Origin: Bacteroidota bacterium
Lineage (GTDB): Bacteria > Bacteroidota > Bacteroidia > Flavobacteriales_E > Vicingaceae
NCBI GenBank assembly: GCA_013112545.1
Contig: JABFGJ010000006.1
Span: 124,001 to 188,000, forward strand
Direction: 5' to 3'
DNA length: 64,000 nucleotides
Shown here: positions 6,118-31,614 of the stretch, one piece after another
How the letters are laid out: each line of letters opens with the position of its first letter
How positions within the stretch are numbered: position 1 is the stretch's first letter
Notes under the pieces: generated by a model
Seen by the model: only the letters and a program-made list of their open reading frames with translations
What the model was told of the DNA's origin: nothing
Databases searched by the model: none
Program-made: the position numbers and the translations under genes

Positions 6118-6290
6118 ATATTTCAATAGCCTATTTTGTTTAACTAATCATTTCGTTGAAAGAGTACAACATACGAAGTTAACATTTTAAACTATTAACT
6201 TAGCAAAAGGTTAGATAAATATTAAAAATATATAGATAAACTAGTTAAAAATTATTCGATTTTTAATTCAAATAAAAGCTAGAGTAGAAA

Positions 6291-6923: not shown

Positions 6924-6936
6924 ATTGATATTTTAA

Positions 6937-7710: not shown

Positions 7711-7718
7711 TTAGTTTA

Positions 7719-9182: not shown

Positions 9183-9228
9183 GTTGTTTTTAATTCTTAA
9201 TTGTTTTATGTTAATTATTGATTACTTT

Positions 9229-10641: not shown

Positions 10642-13600
10642 TTATTCGACAATAATTTTATAATTATTTATTGATGAATTATTCTTAACTTTTAGATAAT
10701 AAACACCTTTAGCAATCCTTAAACCTTGGAGCAATTCCATTCTAACTAATTTTTGTCGGCCTCCAATTTCAACTTCCTTCGTAAGAATCAATTTGCCATT
10801 AGATTCAACTAAATCAATTAAATAACTACCCGCTTTTGGACTTTTTAATTCTAAATATAATGCTCCATTTCTAACAGGGTTTGGAAAAACATTTATAAAA
10901 CCTCCACCTTGGATTTCGTTAAAATAGACCACCTTACTATTGTAAGTTTTAGATTTACCATCAAAATCTACTTGTTTTAAACGGTAATAATTATATCCAA
11001 ATTCTGGAGTTTGATGAATTGCAGTATATGACAATTCAGTATTAGAATTTCCAGCTCCTTTCACAAGAGCTATTTTTTTAAACTCTACCCCATTGGCAGC
11101 ATGTTCAATTTCGAAATAATCATTGTTTATTTCACTACTCGTTTTCCAATCAATTTGAACTTTATCTTCTATTTTAACAACAGTAAAATCCAATAAAACA
11201 ATCGGCAAAGTAATTTCATCATCTATATCTCTAAAATCGTACTCTCCATCTCCGTCAGAGTCGGGAGTAATAGAAGGAACTCCGCCATTATCAGTGTCAT
11301 ACAAATCAATTAACCCATCGTCATCTTGATCAGAATAAAAAGTATTATCTGAGTCTAAGAAATTTGGAACATTATCAGCATCGTCATCCTCTAACCAATC
11401 TGGGATTCCATCACCATCATTTGTTCCATTTACATCAATGGCATTTACATATAACAATGGATTGCCATTACTCGATTCATAGGTAGCAGCTCTAGCTAAT
11501 AAATCGTTTAGGGCGTCACCATCTTCATCATCATCAAATCCTTCAATCCAATCAGGAAAAGTATCTCCATCTGAATCATCGTCTAAATAATCGGGATTGC
11601 CAACACCATCTTTGTTGCTTAGTGTAATCGCTGTTCCACCATTATCTGAATCGTAGGAATTATCCCAACCATCTCCATCGGTATCGCTACCAGTGGGAGC
11701 AACAAAACCAACAGTAGTTTGAGCTTCAACATGATCTGTTATTCCATCTGAATCTGAGTCTAAATCTAAATAATCATTAAACCCATCGCCATCATTGTCA
11801 GCAATAGTTAGAACAGTTCCTCCATTATCTTCATCAAAAGTATTATCCCAACCATCATTATCAGAATCTTGTGGTGTATCAACTTTAGCATCTCCATCAC
11901 TATCAACACCGCCTGCTTCAATGATGTCAGCTACACCATCTCCGTCAGCATCTAAATCAATTCGGTTTGGAAGCCCATCTCCGTCTTTATCTTCGTCAGC
12001 TAGAATTACACCTAAATTATCTGGATCAAATGTATTTGCCCATCCATCTCCATCTGTATCTGTATCATCTTCAACTCTTCCATCTTCATTTGGATCAACT
12101 CCTCCTGCTTCAATAATATCTGGAATACCATCATTATCCGAATCTAAGTCCAAATGATCAGCAATTTCATCTCCATCTGTATCACAAAAACGTTGAGCCT
12201 CAAAACCTATTCTTCCTAAAGTCCAAACGGCTGAATTATCATAACGAACGGCATCCATCAAGCCGGCATAATTACCTGAAACACCATTTGAAGTTCCACC
12301 ATGTGCTCCACCTAGCCCACCATCACTCCCATGAGTACCAATAGTCACGTCACCTGCAGCTGTAGAATTAGGAATTCCATCAACATACACGAGGATAGTT
12401 CCATTATCAAAAACAGCTGCAACATGATGCCATAATCCATCAACCGATAGTGTAAAGTCAGAAGCGATTGAGGCTTCTGAACCAGCACCTGAAGTTCTTA
12501 CTGTAACTGTTGGTGTGCCATCATCTAACCACAATATAAGCCCTTTGGTTCCACCACCTTCTTCATAAACAACTCTATCACCTGATAAATCACTTGGTTT
12601 TATCCAAGCAGAAAAACTTATTTCCGTATAAGCTTCTTCCATAAATACACCATTTTGGCTATATCTTATTTGATTACTAGTTCCATTAAAGCTTGCTGAA
12701 TGTGTTCCTTGAATGGCATCAGTTGAGAAACCTGGCGTATTTCCATCCGTTCTTTCATTGTGTCCATTTCCAGAAACATCGTTCGTATTATTGTCCATCG
12801 TCCAATACGCTTCTGGTGTTTCTCTAAATCTAATTTCTGGAGTAGGACAAGGTGCTTCATTAATATCTAGAACACCATCATTATCGTCATCTATATCATC
12901 AGAATCAACAATGCCATCCCCATCTGAATCAGGATTTGAAACTTCTCTCCAATCTCTTTCAGTAGTAATAAGTAAAACTAAATTAGGATGAGAAGTACCT
13001 TGAAGACTAGAATTTGTAGGATCTGTGCTGCTCGTATTGTTGTCATAGCCATCTAATAAACCATCGTTATCTACATCTGTTGTTCCCCCTGGCAATCCAG
13101 TATTTGCTGGGCTGCCTGCATCGGCAACTCCATCACCATCAGTATCGTGACCCTCTATGACATCATTAATTCCATCACCATCTGTATCTAAATCTAAATA
13201 ATCAGGAGAGTCAGCATCAGTAGCAGAATCGATATCAGATAATTCAAAACTTGAATTTATTCCACCAAAGTTAGCATCATCACTATCATAAGCATCGTCA
13301 ATCCCATCGCCGTCAGCATCGGAGTTTGCAGGAGCAATATATGTTTTAGTTCCTTGACCTTCAGTATTGTCAACGATACCATCATTATCTGCATCAATAT
13401 CAATAAAGTTGTACAAATCATCTCCATCAAAATCACCATTTGGGAAACTATCTGGAGCGCCATCATTATCTCCGTCAACACCTGTAACAATGGTAACATT
13501 GGCTATGTTGGTATCATCTGAATCATCTCCGGCTGCTAATGAATTATTTGGATCTCCATCAACATTGTCATTAAATCCATCATTATCAACATCGACATAA

Positions 13601-16600
13601 GCATCCTCAATTCCATCTCTATCTGTATCTGCTCCTCCGGCTTCTATTACATCAAGAATTCCATCGTCATCGGAATCTAAATCAAGAAAATTGTAAACAT
13701 TATCGCCATCTTTATCATCGTTTGGAAAACTGTTTGGTGCCCCATCATTATTAGTATCTGAACCAGTTAAAGTTAGAGCATTGGCAGTGTTCGAATCAGA
13801 AGCATCGCTACCAACAGCCAATGAGTTATCGGGATCACCGTCAACATCATCATTAAAACCATCGTTATCTGCATCTGAATAATTATCTGCTCTACCATCA
13901 CCATTTACATCCGTGCCGCCAGCTTCAACAACATCGGGTATCCCATCATTATCTGCGTCTAAATCTAAGAAATTCAGTATTCCATCACCATCATGATCTC
14001 CATTTGGATAAGAATCCGGAGCACCATCGTTGTCTGAATCGACACTCGTTAATATTAATGCATTATTTGTATTTGTATCGTCAGAATCATCTCCAACAGC
14101 TAAAGAGTTGTTAGGGTCTCCATCAACATCGTCATTAAATCCATCGTTGTCTGAATCTGTATAATTATCAGCTCTTCCATCTCCATTTACATCCGTGCCG
14201 CCAGCTTCAACAACATCAGGTATTCCATCATTATCGGCATCTAAATCAATATAATTTAAAATTCCGTCCTTGTCGTTATCATCATTTGGATATGAGTTTG
14301 GTGCGCCATCATTATCAGTATCTGTACCGGTCAAGGTTAATGCATTTGCTGAATTTTCTGCAGTCCCATCATTTCCAACATCTCCATCCACATCATCATT
14401 AAACCCATCATTATCCGAGTCAGTATAATTATCTGCTCTGCCATCACCATTCTTGTCTGTTCCTCCTGCTTCAACCACATCGGGTATTCCATCATTATCT
14501 GCGTCTAAATCCAGTTGGTCTGTTATTCCATCCTTATCGGCATCATTATATGGATAAGAATTTGGAACTCCATCATCATCCGTATCTGCTCCGGTTAATA
14601 ATAAAGCATTAGAAGAGTTTTCTGCAGTTCCATTATTGCCTACATCTCCATCTACTTTATCATTAAACCCATCATTATCTGTATCAACATAATTGTCGGC
14701 TCTTCCGTCTCCGTCTGAATCTGTCCCACCTGCCTCAACAACATCAGGAATACCATCATTATCGGCATCTAAATCTAAATGATCTAAAACACCATCACCA
14801 TCCGTATCATCAGTTGGGTAACTATCCGGCTCTCCATCATTGTTACCATCAACTCCAGTTACTAAAATTGGATTCCCTGCAACACACTGTTCTTCATTGT
14901 AAAAATACTTAACGGCATCTAGGTCAAAATCATCATTGGAACCAGAAACCAAACTTAATTTCAGGTATCTCAAGCTATTTTCTGCTTGCATTAAAGTGGA
15001 AACTACATCGTTTTCAGAATTTGTAGATGGACTAACAGAGTGAGTTGAATATCCTGATCCTGGGCTAGTTGATTCTTCAACAACCATGTCAGAAGTAAAA
15101 CTATCATCTCCATAGTTTTTCCTTTTCCAATAAATGATATAGTCAGTTCCCACAGGAAGGGTTACGCCAAAATCCATTACTATATAATCTCCAAAAGAAT
15201 ACAATTCTGCTAATGTGCCATTTGGTTGTCCATTGGCATTAGTTCCATTATCTACACTATTTGATGAACCAGGAATATAAGTTGAAGTACCTATATCAGT
15301 CGAATCAGTACAAATTTGTCCATCGGTAATATCGTTAAATCCATCGTTGTCTGAATCTATATAATTATCAGCAAAACCATCACCATCTTCATCGGTACCA
15401 CCCACCTCAACTACATCAGGAATACCATCATTGTCTGAATCCAAATCAATGTAATCTGGAAAGCCATCTCCATCTGTATCTCTTTCATTATCCGTTGAGC
15501 CATCATTATCAGAATCTAATAATGGATTAGTTGAAACTCCTTGAAGGCATCCAGGTTGGTTTACACAAGGGCTTGAACCAGTTGGACCATCGGTGTCATC
15601 GTTATCATAATCATCTGCTAATCCGTCACCATCGGTATCAGTCAGGTCATCAATTACTCCGTCTCCATCGGTGTCAACCCCTCCAATCTCAATTAAATCG
15701 GAAATTCCGTCATTATCCGAATCTCGATCTAAATAATCTGGAATTCCATCTAAGTCAGAATCATAATTACTACAGGCACCTGTAAGCGTACTTCCGCAAC
15801 CTGGAAAATCAGAGTCTAATGCATTTCTTATTCCATCTCCGTCTAAATCATCACTAGGGTCAGGCAAGCCATCGGCACAATCCCAGCCATTAACACCATG
15901 AAAAGTAGCTAAACAAAAATCAGCATCTTCATAATCTGGAGTCCCATCTCCATCATGGTCACCATTATACATTTCAACTATATCAGGAATACCATCGTTG
16001 TCGTCGTCAATATCCAATACATCAGATAAGCCATCATCATCCTTGTCACAAGTATTAAAAGTAACAATCAAGGTATCTCTTAACTCTGCAAAAGAAAACC
16101 AAGTATTTAAATAAAGCTGATTACCATCATCAGGAGACCAAACATTTCCATTGCTCGTTACCCCTTCAAAATCATAATCAGATGCTCCAAAAGCTCCGCC
16201 TGCTTGTGTGTGATCATAATAAATTCTTCCGGGGTCAGTTGCTACAACAAAAGAAAGCGGTCTGACTAATGTTCGATTAAAACCATTTGGATTAGCTTCT
16301 ACATCACCTAAAGGCATGTGAAAGATTCCTGCCTGGTATTTTATAACCGCTTGAGCTTGACCTGCAACAACTAAGTCACCTAAACCATCTAAATCATCCC
16401 AAGCTAAACAATGAGTCCCTGCTGGCTTATTATCAACCAACAATCGATCTGAAGTCCCTGGATCAAATGTCCCATTTTCATTCATGTCAATTAGAATTTC
16501 TACTTGCCCTCCTTTTGTGATATTATATAAGAAACAAGTAGAGCCAGAACATCTATCATATTCTAAAAAATTCAATCTAGGCAATTCCCCAGCTGAAGGA

Positions 16601-17520
16601 TAAATATTGGTGTCAGGGTTATTTACAAAGATTGGGAATTCTCCATCTACACTTCCTTTTCCTATAGTAGAATAGGGTAAAGATTGTCGGTCAACTTTAT
16701 AGTCGCCAGTGTTTTGAATTCCATATCTGGTAAAAGCGATATTCCAGCCACCTGCTTTTACCTGATCCCACTGAACTGCAAGCACAAGACTATCATCAGA
16801 TTGATATAAAAAGAATTCAGCGTCAACATCATTAAAACCAGTTCCACTGGTTTTGTTATACAAAGACCATTGTAGCGCGTTTAATCGACCATTTATGGCA
16901 GTGTGGTTTCCAGAACCTTCGGGCAATCCATTTGTATTTGCTACAGTTACATCAAAATATGAGATTTGATGTTTAGAGCCTTTAGAGTATGTTGTAGAAT
17001 TTGTCCCATTAAATTCGATGTAGTAATTACCAGCCATTGCTGGTGTGATAGAAATTGCATCATAACCTCCTGCGCCATACACTTCAATTGGGCCATTTCT
17101 AGCTTCAGTTAAGGTTGCTATATACCCTTCACCTGTATGCCCTGTCCCACTACTTAAAACTGCTTGTAAAGTTCCTGGAGTGGTTGGATAAACCTGAGTT
17201 CCGTTAGGATCCATCACTCTAAAATAAGAAGCAGAACTCGAAAACTTATTCATCCCTATGTAAATGCGCTCATTTGCAAAATCGGAAGAAACAGTAATAA
17301 AAATACGCTCATCTGCATTACATCCAGTTGTACCCAAACGGTCATTTCCATCCGGTGTATTAAAAACACATAAAGACATTTCTTGTCCGGACACCATTCC
17401 AACTGGCATCCATTGTGCTGTACCTTCAGAATAAATATTGCTTGTTTTAACAAGTAGTAGAAATAACATCATTAATCTACCACTAAATACTAAGAGATCC
17501 TTAATAGTTTTATTTAACAT
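10642..17520 (-). CDS. Giant T9SS-secreted TSP3-repeat protein B with LamG domain (2,292 aa)
   Basis: Secreted modular protein; ATG start with a signal peptide of about 33 residues. The first 500 or so residues are unlike the other three giants and include a DUF-type beta region of unknown function. Acidic TSP3-like repeats follow. A discoidin-like module lies at about 733-880. Next are five nearly identical tandem units of 88-94 aa (described separately), an ERDWRE boundary motif, and a LamG/concanavalin-like domain at about 1560-1773 (AYWTMDN, ISFSAWIKPSDL, GLWHHVAAVFDNG). More repeats, a conserved EGFDDDEDGDALNDL block, a fibronectin-like segment and a T9SS sorting domain (NVFPNPVRNG, GVYYLKVKNN) end the protein. 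LamG domains often bind glycans, so carbohydrate or matrix adhesion is a reasonable inference. A -7 box ends only four bases before the start codon. Confidence 0.85.
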   Translation of the reverse strand: MLNKTIKDLLVFSGRLMMLFLLLVKTSNIYSEGTAQWMPVGMVSGQEMSLCVFNTPDGNDRLGTTGCNADERIFITVSSDFANERIYIGMNKFSSSASYFRVMDPNGTQVYPTTPGTLQAVLSSGTGHTGEGYIATLTEARNGPIEVYGAGGYDAISITPAMAGNYYIEFNGTNSTTYSKGSKHQISYFDVTVANTNGLPEGSGNHTAINGRLNALQWSLYNKTSGTGFNDVDAEFFLYQSDDSLVLAVQWDQVKAGGWNIAFTRYGIQNTGDYKVDRQSLPYSTIGKGSVDGEFPIFVNNPDTNIYPSAGELPRLNFLEYDRCSGSTCFLYNITKGGQVEILIDMNENGTFDPGTSDRLLVDNKPAGTHCLAWDDLDGLGDLVVAGQAQAVIKYQAGIFHMPLGDVEANPNGFNRTLVRPLSFVVATDPGRIYYDHTQAGGAFGASDYDFEGVTSNGNVWSPDDGNQLYLNTWFSFAELRDTLIVTFNTCDKDDDGLSDVLDIDDDNDGIPDIVEMYNGDHDGDGTPDYEDADFCLATFHGVNGWDCADGLPDPSDDLDGDGIRNALDSDFPGCGSTLTGACSNYDSDLDGIPDYLDRDSDNDGISDLIEIGGVDTDGDGVIDDLTDTDGDGLADDYDNDDTDGPTGSSPCVNQPGCLQGVSTNPLLDSDNDGSTDNERDTDGDGFPDYIDLDSDNDGIPDVVEVGGTDEDGDGFADNYIDSDNDGFNDITDGQICTDSTDIGTSTYIPGSSNSVDNGTNANGQPNGTLAELYSFGDYIVMDFGVTLPVGTDYIIYWKRKNYGDDSFTSDMVVEESTSPGSGYSTHSVSPSTNSENDVVSTLMQAENSLRYLKLSLVSGSNDDFDLDAVKYFYNEEQCVAGNPILVTGVDGNNDGEPDSYPTDDTDGDGVLDHLDLDADNDGIPDVVEAGGTDSDGDGRADNYVDTDNDGFNDKVDGDVGNNGTAENSSNALLLTGADTDDDGVPNSYPYNDADKDGITDQLDLDADNDGIPDVVEAGGTDKNGDGRADNYTDSDNDGFNDDVDGDVGNDGTAENSANALTLTGTDTDNDGAPNSYPNDDNDKDGILNYIDLDADNDGIPDVVEAGGTDVNGDGRADNYTDSDNDGFNDDVDGDPNNSLAVGDDSDDTNTNNALILTSVDSDNDGAPDSYPNGDHDGDGILNFLDLDADNDGIPDVVEAGGTDVNGDGRADNYSDADNDGFNDDVDGDPDNSLAVGSDASDSNTANALTLTGSDTNNDGAPNSFPNDDKDGDNVYNFLDLDSDDDGILDVIEAGGADTDRDGIEDAYVDVDNDGFNDNVDGDPNNSLAAGDDSDDTNIANVTIVTGVDGDNDGAPDSFPNGDFDGDDLYNFIDIDADNDGIVDNTEGQGTKTYIAPANSDADGDGIDDAYDSDDANFGGINSSFELSDIDSATDADSPDYLDLDTDGDGINDVIEGHDTDGDGVADAGSPANTGLPGGTTDVDNDGLLDGYDNNTSSTDPTNSSLQGTSHPNLVLLITTERDWREVSNPDSDGDGIVDSDDIDDDNDGVLDINEAPCPTPEIRFRETPEAYWTMDNNTNDVSGNGHNERTDGNTPGFSTDAIQGTHSASFNGTSNQIRYSQNGVFMEEAYTEISFSAWIKPSDLSGDRVVYEEGGGTKGLILWLDDGTPTVTVRTSGAGSEASIASDFTLSVDGLWHHVAAVFDNGTILVYVDGIPNSTAAGDVTIGTHGSDGGLGGAHGGTSNGVSGNYAGLMDAVRYDNSAVWTLGRIGFEAQRFCDTDGDEIADHLDLDSDNDGIPDIIEAGGVDPNEDGRVEDDTDTDGDGWANTFDPDNLGVILADEDKDGDGLPNRIDLDADGDGVADIIEAGGVDSDGDAKVDTPQDSDNDGWDNTFDEDNGGTVLTIADNDGDGFNDYLDLDSDSDGITDHVEAQTTVGFVAPTGSDTDGDGWDNSYDSDNGGTAITLSNKDGVGNPDYLDDDSDGDTFPDWIEGFDDDEDGDALNDLLARAATYESSNGNPLLYVNAIDVNGTNDGDGIPDWLEDDDADNVPNFLDSDNTFYSDQDDDGLIDLYDTDNGGVPSITPDSDGDGEYDFRDIDDEITLPIVLLDFTVVKIEDKVQIDWKTSSEINNDYFEIEHAANGVEFKKIALVKGAGNSNTELSYTAIHQTPEFGYNYYRLKQVDFDGKSKTYNSKVVYFNEIQGGGFINVFPNPVRNGALYLELKSPKAGSYLIDLVESNGKLILTKEVEIGGRQKLVRMELLQGLRIAKGVYYLKVKNNSSINNYKIIVE
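13495..14868 (-). repeat. Five tandem 264/282-bp repeats inside giant gene B
   Basis: Five consecutive in-frame units of 88, 88, 94, 94 and 94 codons, each containing DLDADNDGIPDVVEAGGTD or a near variant, then GDGRADNY and DNDGFND. The first two end in a TAENSxNA tail; the last three carry a longer NSLAxGxDxxDxN tail, so two subfamilies were amplified. A partial sixth unit follows on the C-terminal side (from 13494 downwards). Each unit holds several calcium-type DxDxDG loops. Confidence 0.9.
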
Positions 17521-17524
17521 TCGA

Positions 17525-17532
17525 CAAAATTA
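17525..17532 (-). promoter_or_regulatory. Candidate -7 box for giant gene B
   Basis: Perfect TAATTTTG on the minus strand ends four bases (TCGA) before the ATG at 17520. This implies a leaderless or nearly leaderless transcript. No clear -33 TTG is seen. Confidence 0.45.
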
Positions 17533-17693
17533 GTTAAACTATAAACTTTATCGACTAAAATTATAATTTAACATATGAATCTTAAAATAAATGATATGAA
17601 CAGCTTAATTATTGTTACTAATACGTGTTCTTTTGATTTCTGATGTTAATACATCTATTGAATCGTTTCAAGTTTTATAGCAGAAAAAGTACT

Positions 17694-17718
17694 AGGACTT
17701 ATCAATTGATAAAATCCT
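17694..17718 (-). terminator. Possible terminator after giant gene C
   Basis: A 14-bp perfect palindrome (TTATCAATTGATAA) is flanked by AGGA and TCCT, forming a longer imperfect hairpin 29 bp after the stop of giant gene C. On the minus strand it is followed by AGTACTTTTTC, a weak T tract. The rest of the 226-bp gap between giants B and C shows nothing recognisable. Confidence 0.35.
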
Positions 17719-17746
17719 AATTTCTGATGTTCTAGCAATAAAAATA

Positions 17747-20700
17747 TTAAAGAATAATAAATGGAAGATTTACGACATCCTGATTGAAATAAACTTTTAG
17801 AATATAAGCACCTGAGTCTAAAACAGACTTTTCTAATACATCGATTTGAAAGTTTTCCATTTCTTCGCTAATCACTAAACTCTTATAAAATAGTTGCTTT
17901 CCATCGGTAGCTAATATTTCATAACTAAAACTCCCTTTTCTAATTAAATCTATAACTAATCTTAATTGTTCTCCATTAGTTGGATTAGGATATATTCCAA
18001 TTCCTTTTGAAGAATAATCTGAAGTATTCCCTTTTTTGAAATTAACCATTTGAACTTTAAAATACTTATAATCTCCATTAAAATCCGTTTGTTTTAAACG
18101 ATAATAATTTGAACCCGTAATTGGGTTTTTATCAAATCTTTGGTAAACTATGGGTTTATTAGAATTTCCTGCACCTTTCTCTATCAATAATGTTTCGAAG
18201 TCTATTCCATTTATAGATCGCTCAATCGTAAAATAATCATTGTTTATCTCGGTAGAAGTTTCCCAATCTAAACGAACGAAAGCATCTTCTTTAATCGCTG
18301 TAAAATACACTAATTCTATAGGCAAAGTAACCTCATTATCCGTGTCTCTAAAATCATATTCTCCGTCACCGTCTTGATCTGACAAACCTGCTGGAATTCC
18401 TCCATTATCAGTATCAAACAAGTCAATCAATCCATCCAAATCTTGATCTGAATAACCGGCATAATCTGGGTCTAAGTAATTTGGGATTCCATCCAAATCA
18501 TCATCTTCTAACCAATCTGGGATTCCATCTCCATCATTTGTTCCGTTTGCATCAAAGGCATTTACATACAACAAAGGATTTCCATTACTCGATTCATAGG
18601 TGTCGGCTCTAGCTAATAAATCATTTAAAGCATCGCCATCTTCATCATCATCAAAGCCTTCTATCCAGTCAGGGAATGTATCTCCATCAGAGTCATCGTC
18701 CATGTAGTCAGGATTGCCAGTAGCGTCATTATTGCTTAATGTAATTGCTGTTCCTCCATCATCAGAATCATAACGATTATCCCAACCATCTTGATCAGTG
18801 TCTAAACCGAGTGGAGCTAAAAATCCTGCTGTCGTCTGACCTTCAACATTGTCATTAATTCCATCAGAATCAGAATCTAAGTCTAAGTAATTTGATATTC
18901 CATCGCCATCGGTATCTACAATTGGTAGGTTTTCACCAGCCTCAGTATGGTCATACGTATTTGCCCAACCGTTAAAGTTATCATCAGTGTTGCTGTCTGC
19001 CATACCATTTCCATCTGCATCAATTCCTCCAGCCTCAATGATGTCGGCTATCCCATCATTATCAGCATCTAAATCTATTCTGTTTTTATAACCATCCCCA
19101 TCTTGGTCTGGATCCGCTAATGGAGTACCACCACTTCCGTCTTGGTCATCAAATACATTTGACCAGCCATCATTGTTGTTGCCATCATTAAACTCTCCGT
19201 CAACCCTTCCATCTCCATCGATGTCAACTCCTCCAGCTTCAATTATATCAGGAATTCCATCATTGTCAGAATCGAGGTCGATTTGATTTGGAATTCCGTC
19301 TCCATCAGTATCACATTGACTAACTTCAGAAAATACAGAAAAAGGAATTGTTGTTTTAGCAATAGAGCCTGAAGAATAAGATACACTTAAAAACTCGCCA
19401 CCTCCATCTTCATAAAACAAAATAGTAATCGGATATGTACCTTTAGTTAATGCTACTGTTCCAGATCTTTCTTGTACTCCATGATTTCCATCATTATTCA
19501 CAATTTGGTTTCCGTCAATGTACAGCTTTGAGCCATCGTCAGAAGTTGTATAAAAAGTATAAGTTTCATTGGTTGAAATTGTAATAAACCCAGTATATCT
19601 AATCGAGAATAAATTTCCATCGCCAGGAGTTTCAATCGCATAAAGTGCGTCAACATCAATGGATGTGACACTTCCTGTTCCAGTGGCTCCAGAAGTTGGA
19701 ATATTATCAACTGTATTGCCTGAAGGTTTTACATCATAAAACTCGTAATATAAAGATTGCGTAATGCCGCTAAGGCAACCAAGGTTTTCATCGACATCAA
19801 GAATACCATCATTATCATCATCGATGTCATATTTGTTTGCTATTCCATCATTATCTGAATCTAAAAATTCTCTCCAATCTCTTTCTGGTGTGAAGGGATT
19901 ATCTAAATCGGGGAAAGAATCTGAGGTCTGGTTATTATTTGAAACATTGCTTGACGAATTCAAGCCTACGACATCATCAAAGCTATCATCTAATCCATCA
20001 TTATCTGAATCAACTCCCGATGGGTTTGTATTGGCTATTCCATCATTGTTTGTATCCCAAGCTTCAAGTATATCAAGATCTCCGTCATTATCTGAATCGG
20101 TGTCTATATAATCAGGATTATCAGCACCATCAGTATTTACTGGAACCAATAAATTAGCTCCTAAATCCATATCAAAATTATCGTCGATACCGTCGCCATC
20201 TGAGTCTGTTCCTGATGGAAGTATCGGATTTGAAGAAGATACTTGCGCTTCAATTACATCAACAATACCATCATCATCAGCATCAATATCTATTCTATCT
20301 TGCAGGTTATCAACATCAGTATCAGGATCTGTTAATGCTGTTCCTCCATTATCGGAGTCAAAAGTATTTGCCCACCCATCATTATCTCCATCTGCATAAG
20401 AATCTACTCTGCCATTATTATCTAAATCAACTCCTCCTGCCTCAATAATATCGGCAATTCCATCATTGTCTGAATCTAAATCAAGTCTATTCTCAACACC
20501 ATCTTTATCTGTATCACAAGCCGAATTTGAGTTTGATAGAACACTAAATGGCAATAGCATTTTAGAAATTGAAGGACTAGAATAAGAAACACTTAAATTA
20601 TCATCTCCAGTATTTTCAAAAAATTCAACTACAAAAGAGTATGTCCCTGGAGTTAATGCAATCGTTCCAGACACTTCAGTTGATGAATGTAGCCCATCAT

Positions 20701-23700
20701 TATCGACTACTTCTGTGCCATTCACATATAGTTTTGAACCATCATCAGAAGTAGTATAGAAGGTATATGTTTCTGAAGTAGAAATAGTAATATATCCTGA
20801 AAATCTAATCCCATAAGTATCTGCATCTCCAGGGTCTGATGAGTTTTGAATAGCATCTACATCAAAATTACTTACTGTTCCTGAAGCTAATTCCCCAGAA
20901 GTTGGAATATTATCTACTGTATATCCAGATGGAGTTCCATCGTAAAAATCATAGTCTAAAAACCCACGACAACTTGCTGCTTCATCTGTATCTAAAATAC
21001 CATCATTATCATCATCAATATCATCTGCATCCAGTATGCCATCATTGTCAGAATCTGTATCGCAAATTGGTTCTAAAACCCCAACAGCATCAATTTCGAA
21101 ATGAGTTGAGCTTGTCGTATTCTCCAACCTGAATCTCAAATACCTAAAATTGTTTAGTGAAGTAATCGTGTCGTTAAATAATGTTGTAGAATTAGTTGCC
21201 GGAAAAACGGGGCGATTATTAAACGTTGAATTATCTTCAGATTCAGCCAATACAATAGTTGCAGTTCCAGTTCGTCCTGTTCGCTCTCTCCACGTTATAA
21301 TGTATTTATATCCTGCTGGAAAAATTTCACCAAAATCCATAACGTATTCATCGTTATTTGAGTCAAAACGTGCAACAGTATTGTTTGGCGTTGATAAAAT
21401 ATTTCCAGAATTAGTAACTCCACTTTGAGATTGCAATGCACCAGTATAATTATTTGTATATCCAGTGCGAAGTAATCCTAAGCCACATTCATCTCCATCA
21501 AACTCTAAATAATCAGGTGTTCCACTTCCATCATTATCAGGTATTTCAGCAATTGTAGGAATTCCATCTGCATCATCATCAACATCTCGAAAATCATCTT
21601 CTCCGTCACCGTCAAAGTCTTGGTGTGCAACATTGGAAACACAAACTATTGCATCAGTATTAATTATTAAAGTAGGATCAACTTCAGCAATTCTAGTGTT
21701 GCCTGACGGTCCTGTAAAAATAAAGACCATATTATTTCCACTTGTCCAAGCTCCTTGATTTACAATTTCTTGAACTATACTAGAAATATCAACTGTTAAT
21801 TGAGCAGCACCTGCTTCTCCAACAGTATTCCAGTTTGCAGGATTCCAAGTTACATTTGCTGTTGTTCTAGGTCTAGTTGAAACATTATAAGCAGTGGAAG
21901 TAAATAAAGAAGGATTACTGCTGAGTTGCCCTTCAATTTTAATGGCAATTGCACCAGTAGAAGTTTCATCAGTTTCAAATTGAATATATGCGGAATTAAC
22001 AGTTACACCTTGATCTATATCCACATTGCCAAACAAAACCCCTACCGTTTGATTTGCACTTTCATTAACTAACTCTAAATCACTACTAGAAAGATTTATT
22101 GAACCATTCGTATTATTTTGTTCTGCGTAGTCTCCTGTTGCAGCATAAATTACATTAGCGCAGCCTGAATCAAAGGCATCATCTAAACCATTTCCATTAT
22201 CATCATTCCCAGAGTTGGCTAGATCTGCCACTCCATTGGCATCTGCATCATTCCCTTCAATAAAATCTGATACCCCGTCATTATCTGAATCTAAATCAAT
22301 ATAATCGGGAATACCATCACCATCTCTATCATAGGGAGTTATTGGGCTAGAAAAAGTAGATACATCCCAAAAATCAATAATACCATCTTCATCGGAATCC
22401 ATAATTAAAGTAGGAAAATTGTAATTCGCAGTACTATATCCTTCACGGGTATCGTCTATGCCATCTGCATCTGAGTCAATGTCTATATAGTTTGGTTTTA
22501 AGCTTAATCCATTAGTAGTTTCATAAGTTGCATCCGTATTTGGTATTGACAAAGGATTATTTGAAAGTAAATCTGAATATCCATCATTATTTAAATCAGT
22601 AACGCCATCTACTTGGCCATCATAATCAGTATCAACACCACCAGCCTCAATAATGTCTAAAATACCATCATTATCCGAATCTAAATCTCTATAGTCTTTA
22701 TGACCATCGTTGTCAGAGTCAGGATTTGGTGAAAGCATAATACCACTTCCTGAAAATGTTTCTCGGGTATCAATTATACCATTTCCGTCAACATCTGCTC
22801 CCGAAATATTTCCATCATTTGCATTATATCCTGAAGGAGCTATACCTGCATTGGCTTCTATTGCATCTGGAATACCGTCATCATCAGAGTCTCGATCTCG
22901 ATAATCGGGAATTCCATCATCGTCAAAATCTTCAATTCCTTCAATGTCATCTCTAATTCCATCATTATCAGAGTCTAAATCACAACTATCAGGAATCATA
23001 TCTAAATCAGAATCTCTACCTGTTTCAAAAAAGTTTGGAATTCCGTCTCCATCACAATCTGGACCTGAAGCGATTCCAAAGTTGTTGCCTGTATCTGTTT
23101 CTCCAAAATTTACATCATCAGTAAAAGAGCTTGTTTCAACATTATCTGTAGTTAAAGCATAACCATATGGATAAGAAGAATACTGAGTAGAAGTTAATAG
23201 ATTACCAGTTGATGCAAAATAGAAACTATAGTCTCCGTTTCCATCTGTTAAAGCACTTTGAATTCGGGTGTCTTCTGGATCAACCAATCCGTTTGAATTA
23301 TTATCCATATACAAATAGACTCTAACGTTTGCAACACCTAGCTCACCTCCTTCTTTAATTCCATTATAATTTACATCATTATAAACAGTACCAGACAATG
23401 TGTTCGCATCTGCTACAAGACTTGCTAAGCCTTCAACATCTGAACCTGGTGAAAAAGAATGAAAATTAGAAACAACACCTGTATTTATATTTATCTCACC
23501 CAATCGATTATCACCATCCCCTTCAGAACCATATAAAGTTCCATCATTGCTAAAAGCTAAGCCCTCAATGTCGTCTTCAGTTAAGACTACCTGTACTGAA
23601 AAAACGCCAGTAAATTTATTTATAGCTATTAGTTGATCGTTAGTTCCATTAAAATTCGAAGAGGCATACATTCTCCCTGTTACAGGTGAAATTGCAATGT

Positions 23701-24220
23701 CGTCAACATCCACTTCGATACCTGGTCCAGCAACTTCTAGGTAATCGATTCCAGGTCCAAAAGCATTTGGCACAAAACGACCAGTATTTGGGTTAATCTG
23801 AAAAATTAAATCGGGTGTTGAGCCACTGTTTCGCTCAGAAGCCCATAATTTAAATGTTCTTCCATCCAACATTAAACCATCAATATCATTTAGAGTTTGT
23901 GGTCCTGCTGATCCGTTAGCAGTTCCACCACCATCAACTTCTGCAATCAGGGTGAATGCACCTGTACTCATATTCAAAGTACCAAAGTCTCCCCCATTGG
24001 TTGCAAACAATTTATTTGCAGATGGGATTGGATAGTATGCAATGGCTTCAATATTGGTAACTCCAGTTGATCCAATAAGTGTTACAGTTCCAGTTGTCCT
24101 ATTTATTGAATACAAACGATCGTTTGCATCTGAAATAAAGTAAAACAAATCTGGATTACCTGCTCTAATTGAAAGAGCTGATATAAAAGATAATAAGAAA
24201 ACTAATCGCTTCAGCACCAA
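17747..24220 (-). CDS. Giant T9SS-secreted TSP3-repeat protein C with two PA14 domains (about 2,157 aa)
   Basis: A paralogue of giant A: signal peptide ending near SIRAG, the same propeller-like N-terminal domain (about 22-270), an SdrD-B-like domain and a collinear first block of TSP3-like repeats. A single CBM/DNRLRE-like module and a discoidin-like module follow. Two PA14 domains (TFYTTSDDGSKLYVNG and TFYTTSDDGSKLYIDG) lie at about 1083-1233 and 1483-1633, separated by a repeat cassette carrying an ERDWRE motif. The conserved EGFDDDEDGDALNDL block, a fibronectin-like segment and a C-terminal T9SS-type domain (IYPNPTNGEQLRL) close it. The start is TTG at 24220 or GTG at 24217; there is no ATG and an in-frame TAA lies just upstream. 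PA14 domains in adhesins often bind glycans; that role here is inference. Confidence 0.83.
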   Translation of the reverse strand: MVLKRLVFLLSFISALSIRAGNPDLFYFISDANDRLYSINRTTGTVTLIGSTGVTNIEAIAYYPIPSANKLFATNGGDFGTLNMSTGAFTLIAEVDGGGTANGSAGPQTLNDIDGLMLDGRTFKLWASERNSGSTPDLIFQINPNTGRFVPNAFGPGIDYLEVAGPGIEVDVDDIAISPVTGRMYASSNFNGTNDQLIAINKFTGVFSVQVVLTEDDIEGLAFSNDGTLYGSEGDGDNRLGEININTGVVSNFHSFSPGSDVEGLASLVADANTLSGTVYNDVNYNGIKEGGELGVANVRVYLYMDNNSNGLVDPEDTRIQSALTDGNGDYSFYFASTGNLLTSTQYSSYPYGYALTTDNVETSSFTDDVNFGETDTGNNFGIASGPDCDGDGIPNFFETGRDSDLDMIPDSCDLDSDNDGIRDDIEGIEDFDDDGIPDYRDRDSDDDGIPDAIEANAGIAPSGYNANDGNISGADVDGNGIIDTRETFSGSGIMLSPNPDSDNDGHKDYRDLDSDNDGILDIIEAGGVDTDYDGQVDGVTDLNNDGYSDLLSNNPLSIPNTDATYETTNGLSLKPNYIDIDSDADGIDDTREGYSTANYNFPTLIMDSDEDGIIDFWDVSTFSSPITPYDRDGDGIPDYIDLDSDNDGVSDFIEGNDADANGVADLANSGNDDNGNGLDDAFDSGCANVIYAATGDYAEQNNTNGSINLSSSDLELVNESANQTVGVLFGNVDIDQGVTVNSAYIQFETDETSTGAIAIKIEGQLSSNPSLFTSTAYNVSTRPRTTANVTWNPANWNTVGEAGAAQLTVDISSIVQEIVNQGAWTSGNNMVFIFTGPSGNTRIAEVDPTLIINTDAIVCVSNVAHQDFDGDGEDDFRDVDDDADGIPTIAEIPDNDGSGTPDYLEFDGDECGLGLLRTGYTNNYTGALQSQSGVTNSGNILSTPNNTVARFDSNNDEYVMDFGEIFPAGYKYIITWRERTGRTGTATIVLAESEDNSTFNNRPVFPATNSTTLFNDTITSLNNFRYLRFRLENTTSSTHFEIDAVGVLEPICDTDSDNDGILDADDIDDDNDGILDTDEAASCRGFLDYDFYDGTPSGYTVDNIPTSGELASGTVSNFDVDAIQNSSDPGDADTYGIRFSGYITISTSETYTFYTTSDDGSKLYVNGTEVVDNDGLHSSTEVSGTIALTPGTYSFVVEFFENTGDDNLSVSYSSPSISKMLLPFSVLSNSNSACDTDKDGVENRLDLDSDNDGIADIIEAGGVDLDNNGRVDSYADGDNDGWANTFDSDNGGTALTDPDTDVDNLQDRIDIDADDDGIVDVIEAQVSSSNPILPSGTDSDGDGIDDNFDMDLGANLLVPVNTDGADNPDYIDTDSDNDGDLDILEAWDTNNDGIANTNPSGVDSDNDGLDDSFDDVVGLNSSSNVSNNNQTSDSFPDLDNPFTPERDWREFLDSDNDGIANKYDIDDDNDGILDVDENLGCLSGITQSLYYEFYDVKPSGNTVDNIPTSGATGTGSVTSIDVDALYAIETPGDGNLFSIRYTGFITISTNETYTFYTTSDDGSKLYIDGNQIVNNDGNHGVQERSGTVALTKGTYPITILFYEDGGGEFLSVSYSSGSIAKTTIPFSVFSEVSQCDTDGDGIPNQIDLDSDNDGIPDIIEAGGVDIDGDGRVDGEFNDGNNNDGWSNVFDDQDGSGGTPLADPDQDGDGYKNRIDLDADNDGIADIIEAGGIDADGNGMADSNTDDNFNGWANTYDHTEAGENLPIVDTDGDGISNYLDLDSDSDGINDNVEGQTTAGFLAPLGLDTDQDGWDNRYDSDDGGTAITLSNNDATGNPDYMDDDSDGDTFPDWIEGFDDDEDGDALNDLLARADTYESSNGNPLLYVNAFDANGTNDGDGIPDWLEDDDLDGIPNYLDPDYAGYSDQDLDGLIDLFDTDNGGIPAGLSDQDGDGEYDFRDTDNEVTLPIELVYFTAIKEDAFVRLDWETSTEINNDYFTIERSINGIDFETLLIEKGAGNSNKPIVYQRFDKNPITGSNYYRLKQTDFNGDYKYFKVQMVNFKKGNTSDYSSKGIGIYPNPTNGEQLRLVIDLIRKGSFSYEILATDGKQLFYKSLVISEEMENFQIDVLEKSVLDSGAYILKVYFNQDVVNLPFIIL

Positions 24221-24233
24221 TTTATTTTTTTAG

Positions 24234-24241
24234 CAAAATTA
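24234..24241 (-). promoter_or_regulatory. Candidate -7 box for giant gene C
   Basis: Perfect TAATTTTG on the minus strand, 13 bp before the TTG start at 24220, in the 56-bp gap after giant gene D. No obvious -33 TTG. Confidence 0.4.
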
Positions 24242-24276
24242 TACTAATTAGTGCATATTAGAATGACTTCGATTGA

Positions 24277-27200
24277 TTAATGAAAAATAATTATTTCAGT
24301 AGTATTTTTCGTACCATAAATTACCTTTAAAGTATATAAGCCAGGATTTATACGCATGCCATTTAATACTTCAATTCTACTCTTTTCAGAGTTAGTTATA
24401 TTTCTTTCTAACACAATTCTACCCATTTCATCAAAGATGAATACTTGAATAATTTGATTTATGAAATCGTCTGTTTCAAGATATAAAACCCCATGTCTAT
24501 TAGGATTTGGATATATTCGTAAAACTTTGTTAGTAGCCTCATTAAAACTTACTTGTCGAATTTCTGAATATGTATATTCCCCATTAAAATCAGTTTGTTT
24601 TAATCGATAATAATTGTCCCCTTTTAATGGATTTTCATCATAAGCTCTATATTCTAGTTTTGTGTTAGAATTGCCTGCTCCTTCCACTCTAATCAATTCA
24701 ATGAATTCTCGATTTTCATTTAATCGCTCTATTGTAAAATATGCATTGTTTATTTCTGATTCAGTTTTCCAATCCAATTGAACAAATTGACCAGATTTTA
24801 TTGCTTCAAACGAAATTAATGTTATTGGTAAAGACACTTTATTGTCCGTATCTCTAAAATCATATTCTCCATCTCCATCGCCATCAGGAAGTAAACTTGG
24901 CACTCCTCCATCATCTGGATCAACAAAATCACTCAAGCCATCATTATCTGTATCGTGGAAAAAAGCACTGGCTGGATCAGCAAAATTTGGAATTCCATTT
25001 AAGTTATCATCTTCTAGAAAGTTTGGTATTCCATCTGCATCTGTGTCATCTGTAGATACATAATACAATGGGTTTCCTTCAGCTAATTCAAATGCATCTG
25101 CTCTAGCAATAAAATCGTCTAAAGCATCTTCTGAATTGTTATCATCAAATCCTTCCATCCAATCTACTAAGCCATCGCCATCAGTATCTGCATCTAAATA
25201 ATCAGGTTCTCCAACAGCATCATTATTACTTAGAGTGATGGCAGTCCCTCCATTGTCAGAGTCATATTCATCGTCCCAACCGTCTCCATCGGTATCTGAG
25301 TTTTGGGGAGATCTATATCCAATAGTAGTCTGACCTTCAACATTGTCTAAAATTCCATCGGTATCCGAATCAATATCTAAATAGTTTTCTAATCCATCTC
25401 CATCGGTATCTGCTACTGAAAGCGCAGTTCCACCATTATTACTATCGAATGTATCTGCCCATCCATCATTATCTGTGTCAGTATTGTTATCTACTCTACC
25501 ATCTCCATTAGCGTCAACTCCATCAGCTTCTATTATGTCGGCAATCCCATCATCATCTGAATCTAAATCATAATAATTTTGAACCCCATCACCATCTTGA
25601 TCACAATCAGAGAAAACATAGGCAGTTCCACTTATTCCGTCAGCTCCACCACCATTTGGGTTAATTACGTTAATCGTATTTGAACCAGCATTAAAAGAGA
25701 TTACATTAAATGATGAACCGTCTCTTGTATTCATTAATTCTAAAGCTGTAGAAGTTGTGGCTCTTGTTCCGTAAATAGAAACCACCCCTACTTCGTCAAT
25801 GAAGATCCTCAACCTAGGAAGTCCATTTGAATTTGCAAGCCATGGCTGAGAAATGTTAGAATTATCGGATTCAAACTGGATAAAAACTTCTCCAGCACCT
25901 GCTGTTCCTTCTAACTGAAATTCATTATTTGTATTTAATCCCCCTCCATTTACTGTAATGGTAACTTCATTATCTACATAATCAATATCGAAATAAGCCC
26001 ATGTTACAGCAGACTGGGTTATGCTTTTCGTGCTTCCTCCATTTCCTCCAATAAAACTGTTTATAGTGGCTCCACATTCTATATAATCAAGAATCCCATC
26101 GTTATCCTTATCTATATCATTTTCATCTGCAATTCCATCTGCGTCCTTATCTTCAATCTCCCTCCAATCTCTTTCAGAGGTATTACCATTGTCTAAATTG
26201 GGGAATGAATTTGAATTTTGTCCATTATTTGTAACATTCGTCGTGTTATTTGGTCCAACTACATCATCAAAATTATCATCTAATCCGTCGTTATCAGAAT
26301 CTGACCCAGAAGGTAAAGTATTCGCTACACCATCATTATCAGTATCCCATCCTTCTATCAAGTCATTTTGTGAATCGTTATCTGAGTTTGTGTCTGTATA
26401 GTCTGGATTAGAATCTCCATCTGTGTCAGTAGGAACAGTTAAAGAACCTGTTAAATCTGGATCAAAATTATCATCAATTCCATCTCCATCTGTATCAGTA
26501 CCGCTAGGAGCAATTAATGTACCTGACACTTGAGATTCTATAATATCTATTATTCCATCATCATCTGCATCAATATCAATTCTATTTTTCAGCCCATCGT
26601 CATCGGTATCTGGGTCTGTTAGGATTGTTCCTCCATTGTTCGGATCAAATGTATTAGACCAACCATCATTGTCTGTATCAGTAAAAGCACCATCTACAAT
26701 ACCATCGCCATCATTATCAACACCTCCTGCTTCAATAATATCGGCTATACCATCCCCATCTGAATCTAAGTCAAATTGATTTGGAGTTCCATCATTGTCT
26801 GTATCACATACAGTACCTATAATAAAGTAAACTGTTCCTGCTATAGCATCTGGCCCACTACCATCTGGATTGATGATTTGAACCGTGTTAGAACCTCCAA
26901 CATAAGATATGGTATTATAAGATGAAGCATCCCCAGTTTCCATCAATTCAAGACTTGTTGACGTTGTTGACCTTGATCCATAAATTGCAACATTTCCACC
27001 TGCATCAATGATTACTCTTACACGTGGCAATCCATTAGAATTAGCACTCCATGGTGTTGAAAGTGCCGCATTATCAGAAGCAATTTGCATAAAAACCTGT
27101 CCAGCTCCTGCAGGACTTTGAAATTGCATTTCATTTGCATTCAAGCTAGTGCCATTTATAATAACTTCAAACTCATTGTCAACGGTTGTAAAATCAATTC

Positions 27201-30200
27201 TTATGGCATCAGGGTCATTTGAATTTAAATTCGAAGTACTTCCGCCATCACCACCAGAAAAAGCCTGTGATGTTTCTGAACCAACGCACTCATCAACATC
27301 TAATATTCCATCATTATCATCATCAATATCGATATCATCGGCAATTCCATCATTATCATTGTCTTTATCCTCTCTCCAGTCTCGTTCAGGGGTAGCTGTT
27401 CGATCCAAGTCAGGGTAAGATGATGATGTTTTCCCATTGTCTGTAATATTTGTGGTATTGTTTGGTCCTACTACATTGTCATAATTATCGTCTAAACCAT
27501 CATTGTCTGTATCAGATCCTGCAGGGCTTGTGTCTGCTGTTCCATCATTGTCGGTATCCCAACCTTCTAACGCATCTAAATCCCCATCATTATCTGAATC
27601 AGTATCTGTATAGTCTGGATTGTCAGCTCCATCTGTATTAACTGGACTGGTTAATGTGTTTCCTTCGTTAACATCAAAATTATCGTCTATTCCATCGCCA
27701 TCACTATCACTCCCACTTGGTGATATTAACGTTCCTGTGGCTTGAGATTCAACTATGTCTATTATTCCATCACCATCTGAATCTAAATCAATTCGATTCT
27801 CTAAGCCATCTCCATCAGTATCTGCATCGGTTAATGCTGTACCACCATTATCGGAGTCAAATGTATTTGCCCATCCATCTCCATCGGTATCTACATATGT
27901 ATCAACTATTCCATTTCCATCGGTATCTAATCCTCCAGCTTCTATGATATCTGCTATGCCATCTCCATCACTATCTGGGTCGTATTGATCTATTACTCCA
28001 TCATTATCGGTATCTCGTGTAGCACAAAATTCTATCGTTACAAACCCAGCTGCTCCTGCAGAATTGATAGCTCCTCCTCCTCCAGTTACTCCTGCAGTTA
28101 TGCTACCACTAATATATGTTGCTGCTCCTGTATTCAAGTATGAGCCACCGCCGCCGGCTCCACCATTTCCACCGGCTGCTCCACCGCCTGAGTAGCCACC
28201 GCCGCCGCCTGAATAGGCACCTGATGAACCGCCACCACCGCCAGTAAATCCTCCGCCACCAGCTGAATAACTTCCTCCGCCACTCGATGCTCCTCCTGAT
28301 ACAAAGGTGACTCCATTTCCAGGTACTAAGTCTGCTGCTGTCCCGCCGCCGGCACTTGAACTTCCTCCATTTGAGTTTATTCCTCCTCCAGCTCCTGCAC
28401 TACTTCCTCCTACTGTCCCGCCTGCTCCGCCTGCTCCTCCTGATCCAGGTGATGTTCCATTTCCATTTACTCCACTTGTTGTGGCGCTTGCTCCTAATCC
28501 TACTCCTCCTCCACTATTGTCTCCTCCGGCTCCTCCTCCGGCAACCATCATTAAGGTATTGTTTATAAATAGTCCTGTACTTCCAGCGCCTCCTGCTGAT
28601 CCTCCGCTTGCAGCTCCACTTCCTGCTCCTACTACAAACCGAATTATATCTCCATTCGATACATTATATGAAGCATTTATTGTTGCGCCACTTCCACCTC
28701 GTGTGGCTGCACCGCCTCCATCTCCTCCATTTACAGATATGATTACTATTCCATCGGAGGTTGCTGTGTAAGATCCTATTCCTCCAGATGTTGCATTAAT
28801 TACTGAAGAACAATCACTTTCATCTACATCCAATATCCCGTCATTGTCATCATCTATGTCGTCTGCATTTAAAACTCCATCTCCATCATTGTCATTGGTA
28901 TTGTTTATCTCTCGCCAATCTCGCTCTGCTGTTCCTGGTAAATCTAAATTTGGAAAACTACTTGATGTTTGTCCATTGTTTGTAATGTTTGTGGTGGAGT
29001 TTTGTCCTACTACATTGTCAAAATTATCATCTAAACCATCATTGTCGCTATCGGTGCCAGATGGAACGGTATTGGCTGATCCATCATTGTTCGTATCCCA
29101 ACCTTCTATTAAATCTGAATCTACATCATTGTCCGAATTGGTATCTAAATAATCGGGTTGGTCAACTCCATCTGTATTGGTTGGTGTGCTTAAACTATTG
29201 CCTTGGTCGGTGTCAAAATTATCGTCTATTCCATCATTGTCGGTATCTAATCCACTTGGGCTTATCAATGCTCCACTTACTTGCGATTCGATTATGTCAA
29301 CGATTCCATCATCATCGGCATCGATGTCTAAATGATTTTGTATCCCATCTCCATCTTGATCTACGTCTGTTAATGCTGTTCCGCCATTGTCAGAATCAAA
29401 TGTGTTGGACCATCCATCGCCATCGGTATCTGTAAATGCTCCATCTACTATTCCATTGCCGTCTGAATCTACTCCTCCAGCTTCTATTAGGTCTGCGATG
29501 CCATCTCCGTCTGAATCCGGATCGTGATGATTCGGTATTCCGTCATTATCAACATCATACACATCTGGCAATCCATCCCCATTGCTGTCTATATAACTGG
29601 TGATGCTTCCATCTCCTCCATTTCCATCATCATTCGTATCATTCCAATTTTGTATGCCATCTCCATCTTCATCGCCATTTGGATTATTGCTGCCTCTTCC
29701 TTCATTGACATCTAATATTCCATCGTTATCATCGTCAATGTCATCATAGTCTTGAATTCCATCATCATCAACGTCTCCGTCTTCTCGCCAATCGCGCTCA
29801 GGGGTTAGCCCTTCATCTAAGTTCGGAAAATCATCTGAGTCTTGTCCATTGTTGGTGATGTTGGTGGTTGAATTAAACCCTGCTTGGTTGTCAAATGCAT
29901 CATCTAATCCATCACCGTCGGTATCTGTTCCTGATGGTACTGTGTTGGCTACCCCGTCATTGTCCGTATCCCATGCTTCTAATATGTCTAAGTCGCCATC
30001 ATTATCGGAGTCTGGGTCTTGAAAGTCAGGTATCCCATCTCCATCGGTGTCGATTGGGCTAGGTACCACTTCAAAGTTATCATCTATTCCATCACTGTCG
30101 GCATCAGTACCGGCAGGTGATATTGGTGTTGATGTAGAGCCTTGCCATTCTATATAATCTACTATTCCATCATTGTCGGCATCTATGTCTAAATAGTCAG

Positions 30201-31614
30201 GCACTCCATCTCCATCGCTGTCAACTGAACCGCAATCACCTATATAGGTGAAATCCCATATCGTTATCCACTGATTGCCCGGGGCTGCTGGAGCATTTGA
30301 GCCATTTCCGTAATAAACAACCATGCTGTCTATTGGCTCGCTAAATGCTACATCCACATTGGCGGTAGCTAAGTTATCGGCCGTGCTTACATCGCCTACT
30401 GCTCGATTTTGGGTTACAGTATTGTTGGCACTGGATGTCATGGTGGGAAAAACAACAAATCCATTGTAGAATCCAATGATCATCACTGAATCTACATATT
30501 GCCCTCCTAATTGATCTACATCAAATATGGTATAGGATAAATCACTTATGGCTTGATCCCATTTAAAACTGACATCGATGCTGTTTACTTGTAGGTTCTG
30601 ATTCCCATTTAAAAATAAACCTACGGTTCCTCCTCCATTACCGCCTGTTAAATCTGAATTGGTCTCGCCTGCTACTATAGATGCTCCATTGGAACTGACA
30701 TATACCGTCATGTTGGTGCCATCAGGGAGGTTATAAGTGTTTGAGGGGTCGCCATTGGTATAGCTCATGTTGTCCCATTCTGCGGTCACTGGTGCTGAAG
30801 CAGGACATTTCTCAATGACATCATAAATCCCATCATTGTCATCGTCTTCATCTTGGGTGTCTGCTATTCCGTCTTGGTCGGTATCGGGTGTTAAACAAAT
30901 ATCGATATCTCCTAATGCAAATTCAGTATTGGCGGCGTTTGCGCATCCAGAACACCTTCTTAAAATGACTGTTATTGTTGAGATATCAGAAATACTCTTG
31001 AAATTTATTCCAACTTGATCATTGGTTCCTGTATTACTACTCGCATTTCCATCTATTACTCCAGGTCCTTCTAATTCCCATGAAGGTGTACCATTATCGG
31101 TTAATTCGGGTACTATGGCATATCCGCCTGTGGTTAACCCGTAAACTTCCATCTGCTGTCCGCCTGCTCCTCCTCCTGAAAGTTCTCTAATGTTATATAA
31201 ATCAAAAGAGATGTTTCCCGCTAAGGCAGGAGTAAAGGTCATGGTCAACTTTATTTCTTGTGTGGAACTTAAACCTAAGGTTGAAATGTGTAATCCATCC
31301 ACATTGCCACTGCGTGATGAGCTGGTTACTCCAGGTGTATTGATTCCAGCGTCTGAGGTTAAACGGGCTGTTGCTCCTGTTACGGCAAATCCTATTTGAT
31401 AGCCGCTACCTTGTATATTTGATGCTGTAAATGTGGTAGCTCCTTGGGGTGTCCAATTAAACTGGTTGGCTGTTGGTGTGGCATCCCAATCGAGGGTGAA
31501 GTTTGTGCTTATTGATGAACAAGAATTATCATGGAGGATTTGGGAGTAGATTTTGTTTGTGATAGAAAACAAAAAAAACAGAAAGATAAACAGAAAACGT
31601 TTAGTTATTTGCAC
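24277..31614 (-). CDS. Giant T9SS-secreted TSP3-repeat protein D with glycine-rich domain (2,445 aa)
   Basis: The longest of the four giants; GTG start with signal peptide ([19 protein letters not shown]). The N-terminal 250 residues form an unassigned beta domain with a CSGCAN motif. The rest alternates TSP3-like repeat cassettes with globular modules: an unassigned domain at about 275-450, a glycine-rich domain at about 935-1198, and two homologous modules at about 1441-1601 and 1845-2005 (shared [26 protein letters not shown]). Four cassettes end with an ERDWRE motif followed by [11 protein letters not shown]-type repeats. The [15 protein letters not shown] block, a fibronectin-like segment and a T9SS sorting domain ([16 protein letters not shown]) close it. 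Predicted extracellular and calcium-binding. No ligand can be named from sequence. Confidence 0.83.
28020..28810 (-). other. Glycine-rich ALK/LTK-type domain encoded within giant gene D
   Basis: About 260 codons (residues about 935-1198) rich in Gly, Ala and Ser, with runs such as [14 protein letters not shown]. The front has the logic of the ALK/LTK glycine-rich family: a beta strand ending in [13 protein letters not shown], then [16 protein letters not shown], and a last strand GFVTIEFC. The DNA is clearly richer in G+C than the surrounding AT-rich repeats. It sits between two TSP3 cassettes exactly where other globular modules sit. Confidence 0.6.

Follow-up and report, generated by a model that had tools for sequence, protein, structure and literature searches.

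ERDWRE in three giant secreted proteins of a Vicingaceae bacterium: a likely lineage version of a TSP3-like calcium-loop corner, with cysteine-bracketed modules grafted one unit further on

The window analysed here is a stretch of 64,000 nucleotides from a Bacteroidota bacterium (Vicingaceae; assembly GCA_013112545.1, contig JABFGJ010000006.1, positions 124,001-188,000) that harbours four genes for giant proteins, designated A to D. The bodies of these proteins are tandem arrays of DxDxDGxxDxxD loops with grafted modules, including a LamG domain (PF13385) in B, two PA14 domains in C, and a Gly-rich stretch and an unnamed pair in D. Their N-termini look hydrophobic when the sequence is inspected by eye and their C-termini match the type IX secretion system (T9SS) type A sorting domain TIGR04183, with scores of 34.3 (A), 26.9 (B), 25.3 (C) and 32.3 (D) bits against a curated cut-off of 23. 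The subject of this study is the hexapeptide ERDWRE, which an earlier inspection of the DNA and its translations (the sequence-only reading) had proposed as a boundary motif recurring six times in three of the giants. A scan of all six frames bore out both the number and the positions, with exactly six copies, all on the minus strand and spread over the neighbouring genes B (one), C (one) and D (four), with none in A. The features concerned are collected in Table 1.

Table 1. Features of the window considered in the text; coordinates are window positions and cysteines are numbered by protein residue.
Feature	Coordinates	Strand	Cys pair	Remarks
ERDWRE in B	12943..12960	minus		residues 1521-1526
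ERDWRE in C	19868..19885	minus		residues 1446-1451
ERDWRE copy 1 in D	29782..29799	minus		residues 606-611; more repeats next, no module, no Cys
ERDWRE copy 2 in D	28909..28926	minus		residues 897-902
ERDWRE copy 3 in D	27370..27387	minus		residues 1410-1415
ERDWRE copy 4 in D	26158..26175	minus		residues 1814-1819
Cassette of B	12856..13206	minus		TSP3-like unit, insert, ERDWRE, double calcium-loop unit
Cassette of C	19787..20116	minus		homologous cassette
Cassette 1 of D	29701..30027	minus		homologous cassette
Cassette 2 of D	28819..29157	minus		homologous cassette
Cassette 3 of D	27289..27618	minus		homologous cassette; AlphaFold2 target
Cassette 4 of D	26077..26406	minus		homologous cassette
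Modules of A		minus	684/1035, 1087/1228, 1257/1391	Cys-bracketed
Module of B		minus	737/879	Cys-bracketed
LamG (PF13385) module of B	12184..12849	minus	1558/1779	
Modules of C		minus	687/860, 912/1053	Cys-bracketed
First PA14 of C	20516..20971	minus	1084/1235	no ERDWRE upstream; 57% identical to second
Second PA14 of C	19313..19777	minus	1482/1636	ERDWRE upstream
Module of D	30232..30807	minus	270/461	no ERDWRE upstream
Gly-rich module of D	28024..28812	minus	935/1197	
Unnamed beta-rich module of D	26806..27288	minus	1443/1603	
Second copy of unnamed module in D	25603..26076	minus	1847/2004	51% identical
Giant protein A	421..6126	minus		T9SS type A sorting domain; architecture as B-D, ERDWRE absent
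Giant protein B	10642..17520	minus		T9SS type A sorting domain, TIGR04183 above cut-off
Giant protein C	17747..24220	minus		T9SS type A sorting domain, TIGR04183 above cut-off
Giant protein D	24277..31614	minus		T9SS type A sorting domain, TIGR04183 above cut-off

B, C and D together have 6894 residues, for which amino-acid composition predicts 6.6e-6 copies of ERDWRE; the six copies are nevertheless not independent events, as they are sited in homologous cassettes. These cassettes are about 95-110 residues long, are 56-73% identical to copy 4 of D, and run in the order of an E[GA]WDTDNDG..PSG. unit, an Asn-rich insert, FPNLD....ERDWRE and a double loop. The acidic DLD or NLD previously described ahead of the hexapeptide precedes five of the six copies (B has NLV), and a D-x-D-x-DG..D..DI-D-[DK]-D-N-D-G-[IV]-L-D unit follows in all six. 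The accompanying statement that a module or new cassette then begins stands for the copies in B, C and D 2-4, where a module (LamG, PA14, the Gly-rich stretch and, twice, the unnamed module) starts some 30-36 residues on, but not for copy 1 of D, which leads into more repeats. ERDWRE is conserved at the protein level: there are five codon versions among the six copies, and their third positions are no more alike than elsewhere. No further cassette copy with ERDWRE was found in the rest of the organism's own genome. An exact-motif search of 394 other Bacteroidota genomes with a degenerate DNA pattern, which also allows Ser for Arg, returned chance matches or unrelated proteins and none in a DxDxDG repeat among the matches read in context, which were those listed apart from the second in genome G164 and the one in G365. 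A literature search on the motif and on bacterial TSP3 arrays returned nothing on the motif.

The hexapeptide had been described as lying outside the TSP3 consensus; this proved to be wrong, because ERDWRE sits at positions 7-12 of DxDxDGxxDxxD. By alignment it is the xxD[YFW]xD/E tail of the unit, in which its D and E fill acidic positions 9 and 12, and what the cassette has lost, read in the same register, is the first half of the unit (the DxDxDG loop), given up to the Asn-rich insert. The intact form of the unit is found in relatives (DTDGDATRDWRD, DTDADGTPDWRD), some of which harbour DWR at the matching place (DTDGDATRDWRDDDDDGDG, DTDADGTPDWRDVDDD, DTDNDGEPDWRDVDDD), and in one array (L152/L189) a DWRD form, DTDGDGTGDWRDLDSDNDG, alternates with the DYLD form. 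Relatives also hold an intact calcium-loop unit after a DGLDDAYD-type unit (QDTDGDATRDWRDDDDDGDG in L029, PDTDMDGTQDWRDPDDDGDG in L041 and QDTDNDGEPDWRDVDDDGDG in L061), and when the six cassettes were aligned with the L029 stretch using hhalign, ERDWRE was placed onto TRDWRD (93% probability, E 3e-7). A hidden Markov model of the canonical unit locked onto the double loop of the ERDWRE segments and not onto ERDWRE itself, and so does not decide the register.

Conservation of the corner was assessed in 103 long-loop cassettes collected by flank anchors and not by the motif. A D[WYF] pair lies near the end of 84 of these, the aromatic being W in 42, F in 27 and Y in 15, and the residue that follows is R in 79 of the 84; variants of the hexapeptide include EVDFRS, DVDYRD, ELDWRE and DRDWRD beside ERDWRE. 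Across these aligned cassettes, D-[WYF]-R is the conserved core. The D-W-R invariance of a further alignment (A3) holds by construction, as its members were selected on DW[RK], and it was excluded as evidence. We regard the ERDWRE corner as a variant, specific to this lineage, of a repeat corner already known.

What accompanies modules more faithfully than ERDWRE is a pair of cysteines. Such a pair brackets each of the 13 large modules of A-D, eight of which have no ERDWRE upstream; the entry cysteine comes after the last calcium loop and the exit cysteine immediately ahead of the next array. Pairs were assigned from the residue list because fixed script windows miss a few. The two PA14 modules of C differ in ERDWRE upstream and have the cysteine pair in common. 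Among DWR double loops, a cysteine lies within 15 residues in all those that lead to a module (20/20) and in none of the others (0/25) (5/5 and 0/1 in our own proteins, 15/15 and 0/17 in a first set of sequences, none and 0/7 in a second). Taking all double loops, cysteine and module were associated with an odds ratio of 54 in the first set; for the second set it was 24.5, and there a module follows 10/18 double loops with the cysteine versus 5/103 without; the rule had been noticed in the window and the first set and was then applied to the second, some rows of which had been seen beforehand. For 225 modules of other proteins the entry cysteine peaks at +12 to +15 and the exit cysteine at -1 to -5, and both are present in 66, where about 1.5 would be expected. 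The cysteine pair marks module insertion better than ERDWRE does, and its two members probably form a disulfide staple.

Two further observations concern the modules and cysteines. The unnamed module of D, about 160 residues, beta-rich and without a Pfam family, has two copies in D and is also present in three other genomes (L008, L009 and L169), always with the entry cysteine and in L169 with no DWR upstream; fold matches of its model were not used because the model is of low confidence (predicted local distance difference test, pLDDT, 56). In B, positions 15547-15915 encode three short cysteine pairs (536/548, 575/583 and 652/658) in short inserts between loops, as if these were bracketed too.

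The fold of the cassette was modelled with AlphaFold2 from cassette 3 of D and 43 relatives (mean pLDDT 78.6; predicted template modelling score, pTM, 0.58), and in the model residues 100-102 (W, R, E) form a helical turn. At E<=10 this model has only five fold matches in the PDB, each of them weak: four thrombospondin/COMP TSP3 structures, which rank highest (E 0.03-2.2, TM-scores 0.20-0.24), and chain D of 9n2d, which is BamM. A sequence search of the PDB with the cassette profile gave no match; for the array, BamM again ranks first among PDB sequences (E 0.016). Weak matches to TSP_3 and TSP3_bac were obtained for 13/44 and 12/44 cassette relatives respectively. Several results weigh against an ordinary TSP3-like corner with stapled modules: Pfam TSP_3 (PF02412) reaches 17.2 bits on D and TSP3_bac (PF18884) 7 bits on the ERDWRE segment, each against a cut-off of 25; taken singly, no fold match attains significance (best E 0.03); in the window cassettes the next loop lies 1-3 residues further from ERDWRE than canonical units would have it, so that the corner may be structurally specialised; and the staple is not universal, since only about a third of the modules in the wider sample have both cysteines. 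We refer to the arrays as TSP3-like, and not as Pfam members, because their scores fall below the curated cut-offs.

Three other accounts of ERDWRE were weighed against the data. The sequence-only reading had expected the motif to precede module insertions far more often than chance, and this was so within A-D and in the first set of sequences. In A-D a module follows the double loop of five ERDWRE copies out of six, although another five double loops bear a module and lack the hexapeptide. In the first set, D[WYF]R was strongly associated with a module after its double loop (40/82 versus 76/579, odds ratio 6.3), the excess survived shuffling of modules within proteins (40 observed versus 15.0 expected), and 15/32 DWR double loops run straight into a module. 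Such figures are what a dedicated pre-module cap would give, with D-[WYF]-R and the double loop forming an adaptor selected to carry a grafted domain. In the held-out second set, however, which was collected without D[WYF]R as a search criterion, the motif does not predict a module (1/9 versus 14/108, odds ratio 0.84), and the rule that D[WYF]R precedes modules was dropped; p-values are nominal throughout, since the sequences within each set are related. Relatives such as L012, L017, L018, L029 and L177 largely show what the sequence-only reading had named as counting against its idea, a motif placed at random with respect to modules or not conserved. Eight of the 13 modules in A-D lack ERDWRE, the closely similar PA14 modules of C include one with it and one without, and the unnamed module does without it in L169. 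A dedicated cap is, in our judgement, unlikely.

The other two accounts were those put forward with the motif itself. As a flexible hinge between rod segments, ERDWRE would be well placed, as it has the Asn-rich stretch on one side and the following loop pair on the other and the chain could bend there, and the pTM of the model leaves relative orientation uncertain; but the ERDWRE block (residues 91-110) has a pLDDT of about 81-82, like its surroundings, the internal minimum (59) falls in the Asn-rich block of residues 71-80, and a conserved D-aromatic-R core would be unusual in a flexible linker, so a hinge at this point seems very improbable. A recombination boundary for module swapping would account for the same sequence standing near many module entries, yet it is at odds with where the homology begins and ends. 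When five cassettes were aligned with their flanks, identity rose at CDTDxDG about 228 residues before ERDWRE, kept mostly within 0.4-0.8 as far as the hexapeptide and across it, peaked at 0.84 in the double loop and fell to 0.19 some 37 columns after the ERDWRE start, homology ending at D..E/C about 30 residues beyond the hexapeptide. For identical residues, third bases match at a rate of about 0.5 throughout, including 0.54 at ERDWRE, where the codings of the copies differ, and there is thus no sign of recent DNA exchange or of homogenisation at the DNA level. We find a recombination boundary hardly credible.

We consider it likely, instead, that ERDWRE is the lineage version of an ordinary TSP3-like calcium-loop corner, and that modules are grafted one unit further on and stapled there by a disulfide. 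The loops would bind calcium and form a semi-rigid rod on a T9SS-secreted protein, which may serve as an adhesin. In the cassette, the DxDxDG first half of one unit would have been worn down, with the Asn-rich insert before what is left (PNLD.....ERDWRE), and the corner would retain its D (position 9), aromatic (10), Arg (11) and final acid (12). It may have been kept because the D and E still act as calcium ligands or charge partners, the W packs on the neighbouring loop and the arginines pair with acidic loops. ERDWRE would then close one stretch of calcium-stiffened rod ahead of the next double loop, after which the globular modules would be grafted, with one cysteine 12-15 residues after the last loop start and another 1-5 residues before the next array; a disulfide between the two would staple both ends of the module into the rod. 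Whether this extends to a general plug-in rule, by which any globular module could be grafted after a closing double loop with one disulfide at its ends (DNDGILDxxE..C ... C-DTDGDG), we hold to be evenly balanced.

Comparison with known systems places the giants close to, but apart from, three groups. Thrombospondin TSP3 (PF02412) and bacterial TSP3 (PF18884) share with them the tandem DxDxDGxxDxxD consensus and the near absence of regular secondary structure, and provide the top fold matches; the giants differ in lying below the Pfam cut-offs, in their long arrays with grafted modules, in the aromatic corner D[WYF]R and in their cysteine plan, with cysteines at module ends where TSP3 has them in each C-type repeat. 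BamM (9n2d chain D; NF053691) is likewise an extracellular Bacteroidota domain without regular secondary structure and a weak NCBIfam match, and the C-terminal domain of this component of the Flavobacterium johnsoniae BAM complex is ordered by seven ions assigned as calcium (PMC12611786). It carries YDFRN ahead of a double loop, TDKDGIADFLDSDDDGDG, a likeness to ERDWRE judged by eye in an alignment only, but it is a lipoprotein of the BAM complex and not a T9SS giant, and grafted modules were not noted in it. The solved BamM structure may already show a D[WYF]R-type corner. With the T9SS type A cargo giants (TIGR04183) the resemblance lies in the sorting domain, for which A-D are all above the curated cut-off; the studied gliding adhesin SprB is a type B T9SS substrate (PMC12635249), in contrast to the type A domain of A-D.

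Between A and B, positions 6291-10503 encode an SCO1/SenC protein, a formylglycine-generating-enzyme-like protein, an alginate-export-type porin and a copper nitrite reductase (TIGR02376, 348 bits versus a cut-off of 296) with a C-terminal cytochrome c domain. A plus-strand open reading frame of 154 amino acids at 28307-28771, antisense to the Gly-rich module of D, is most likely spurious. Rfam and tRNA scans of the window gave no matches.

No description of a cysteine-bracketed graft was found in a non-exhaustive search of open-licence papers. In place of the proposed hinge or recombination motif, the present analysis offers a testable rule, that cysteine-bracketed grafts seat domain insertions in calcium-dependent rods. 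This cysteine rule could be used to place domain boundaries in giant proteins that family libraries barely annotate, and also when modules are to be expressed singly. If the plug-in rule is true, modules would be exchanged without disturbing the path of the rod or its resistance to pulling.

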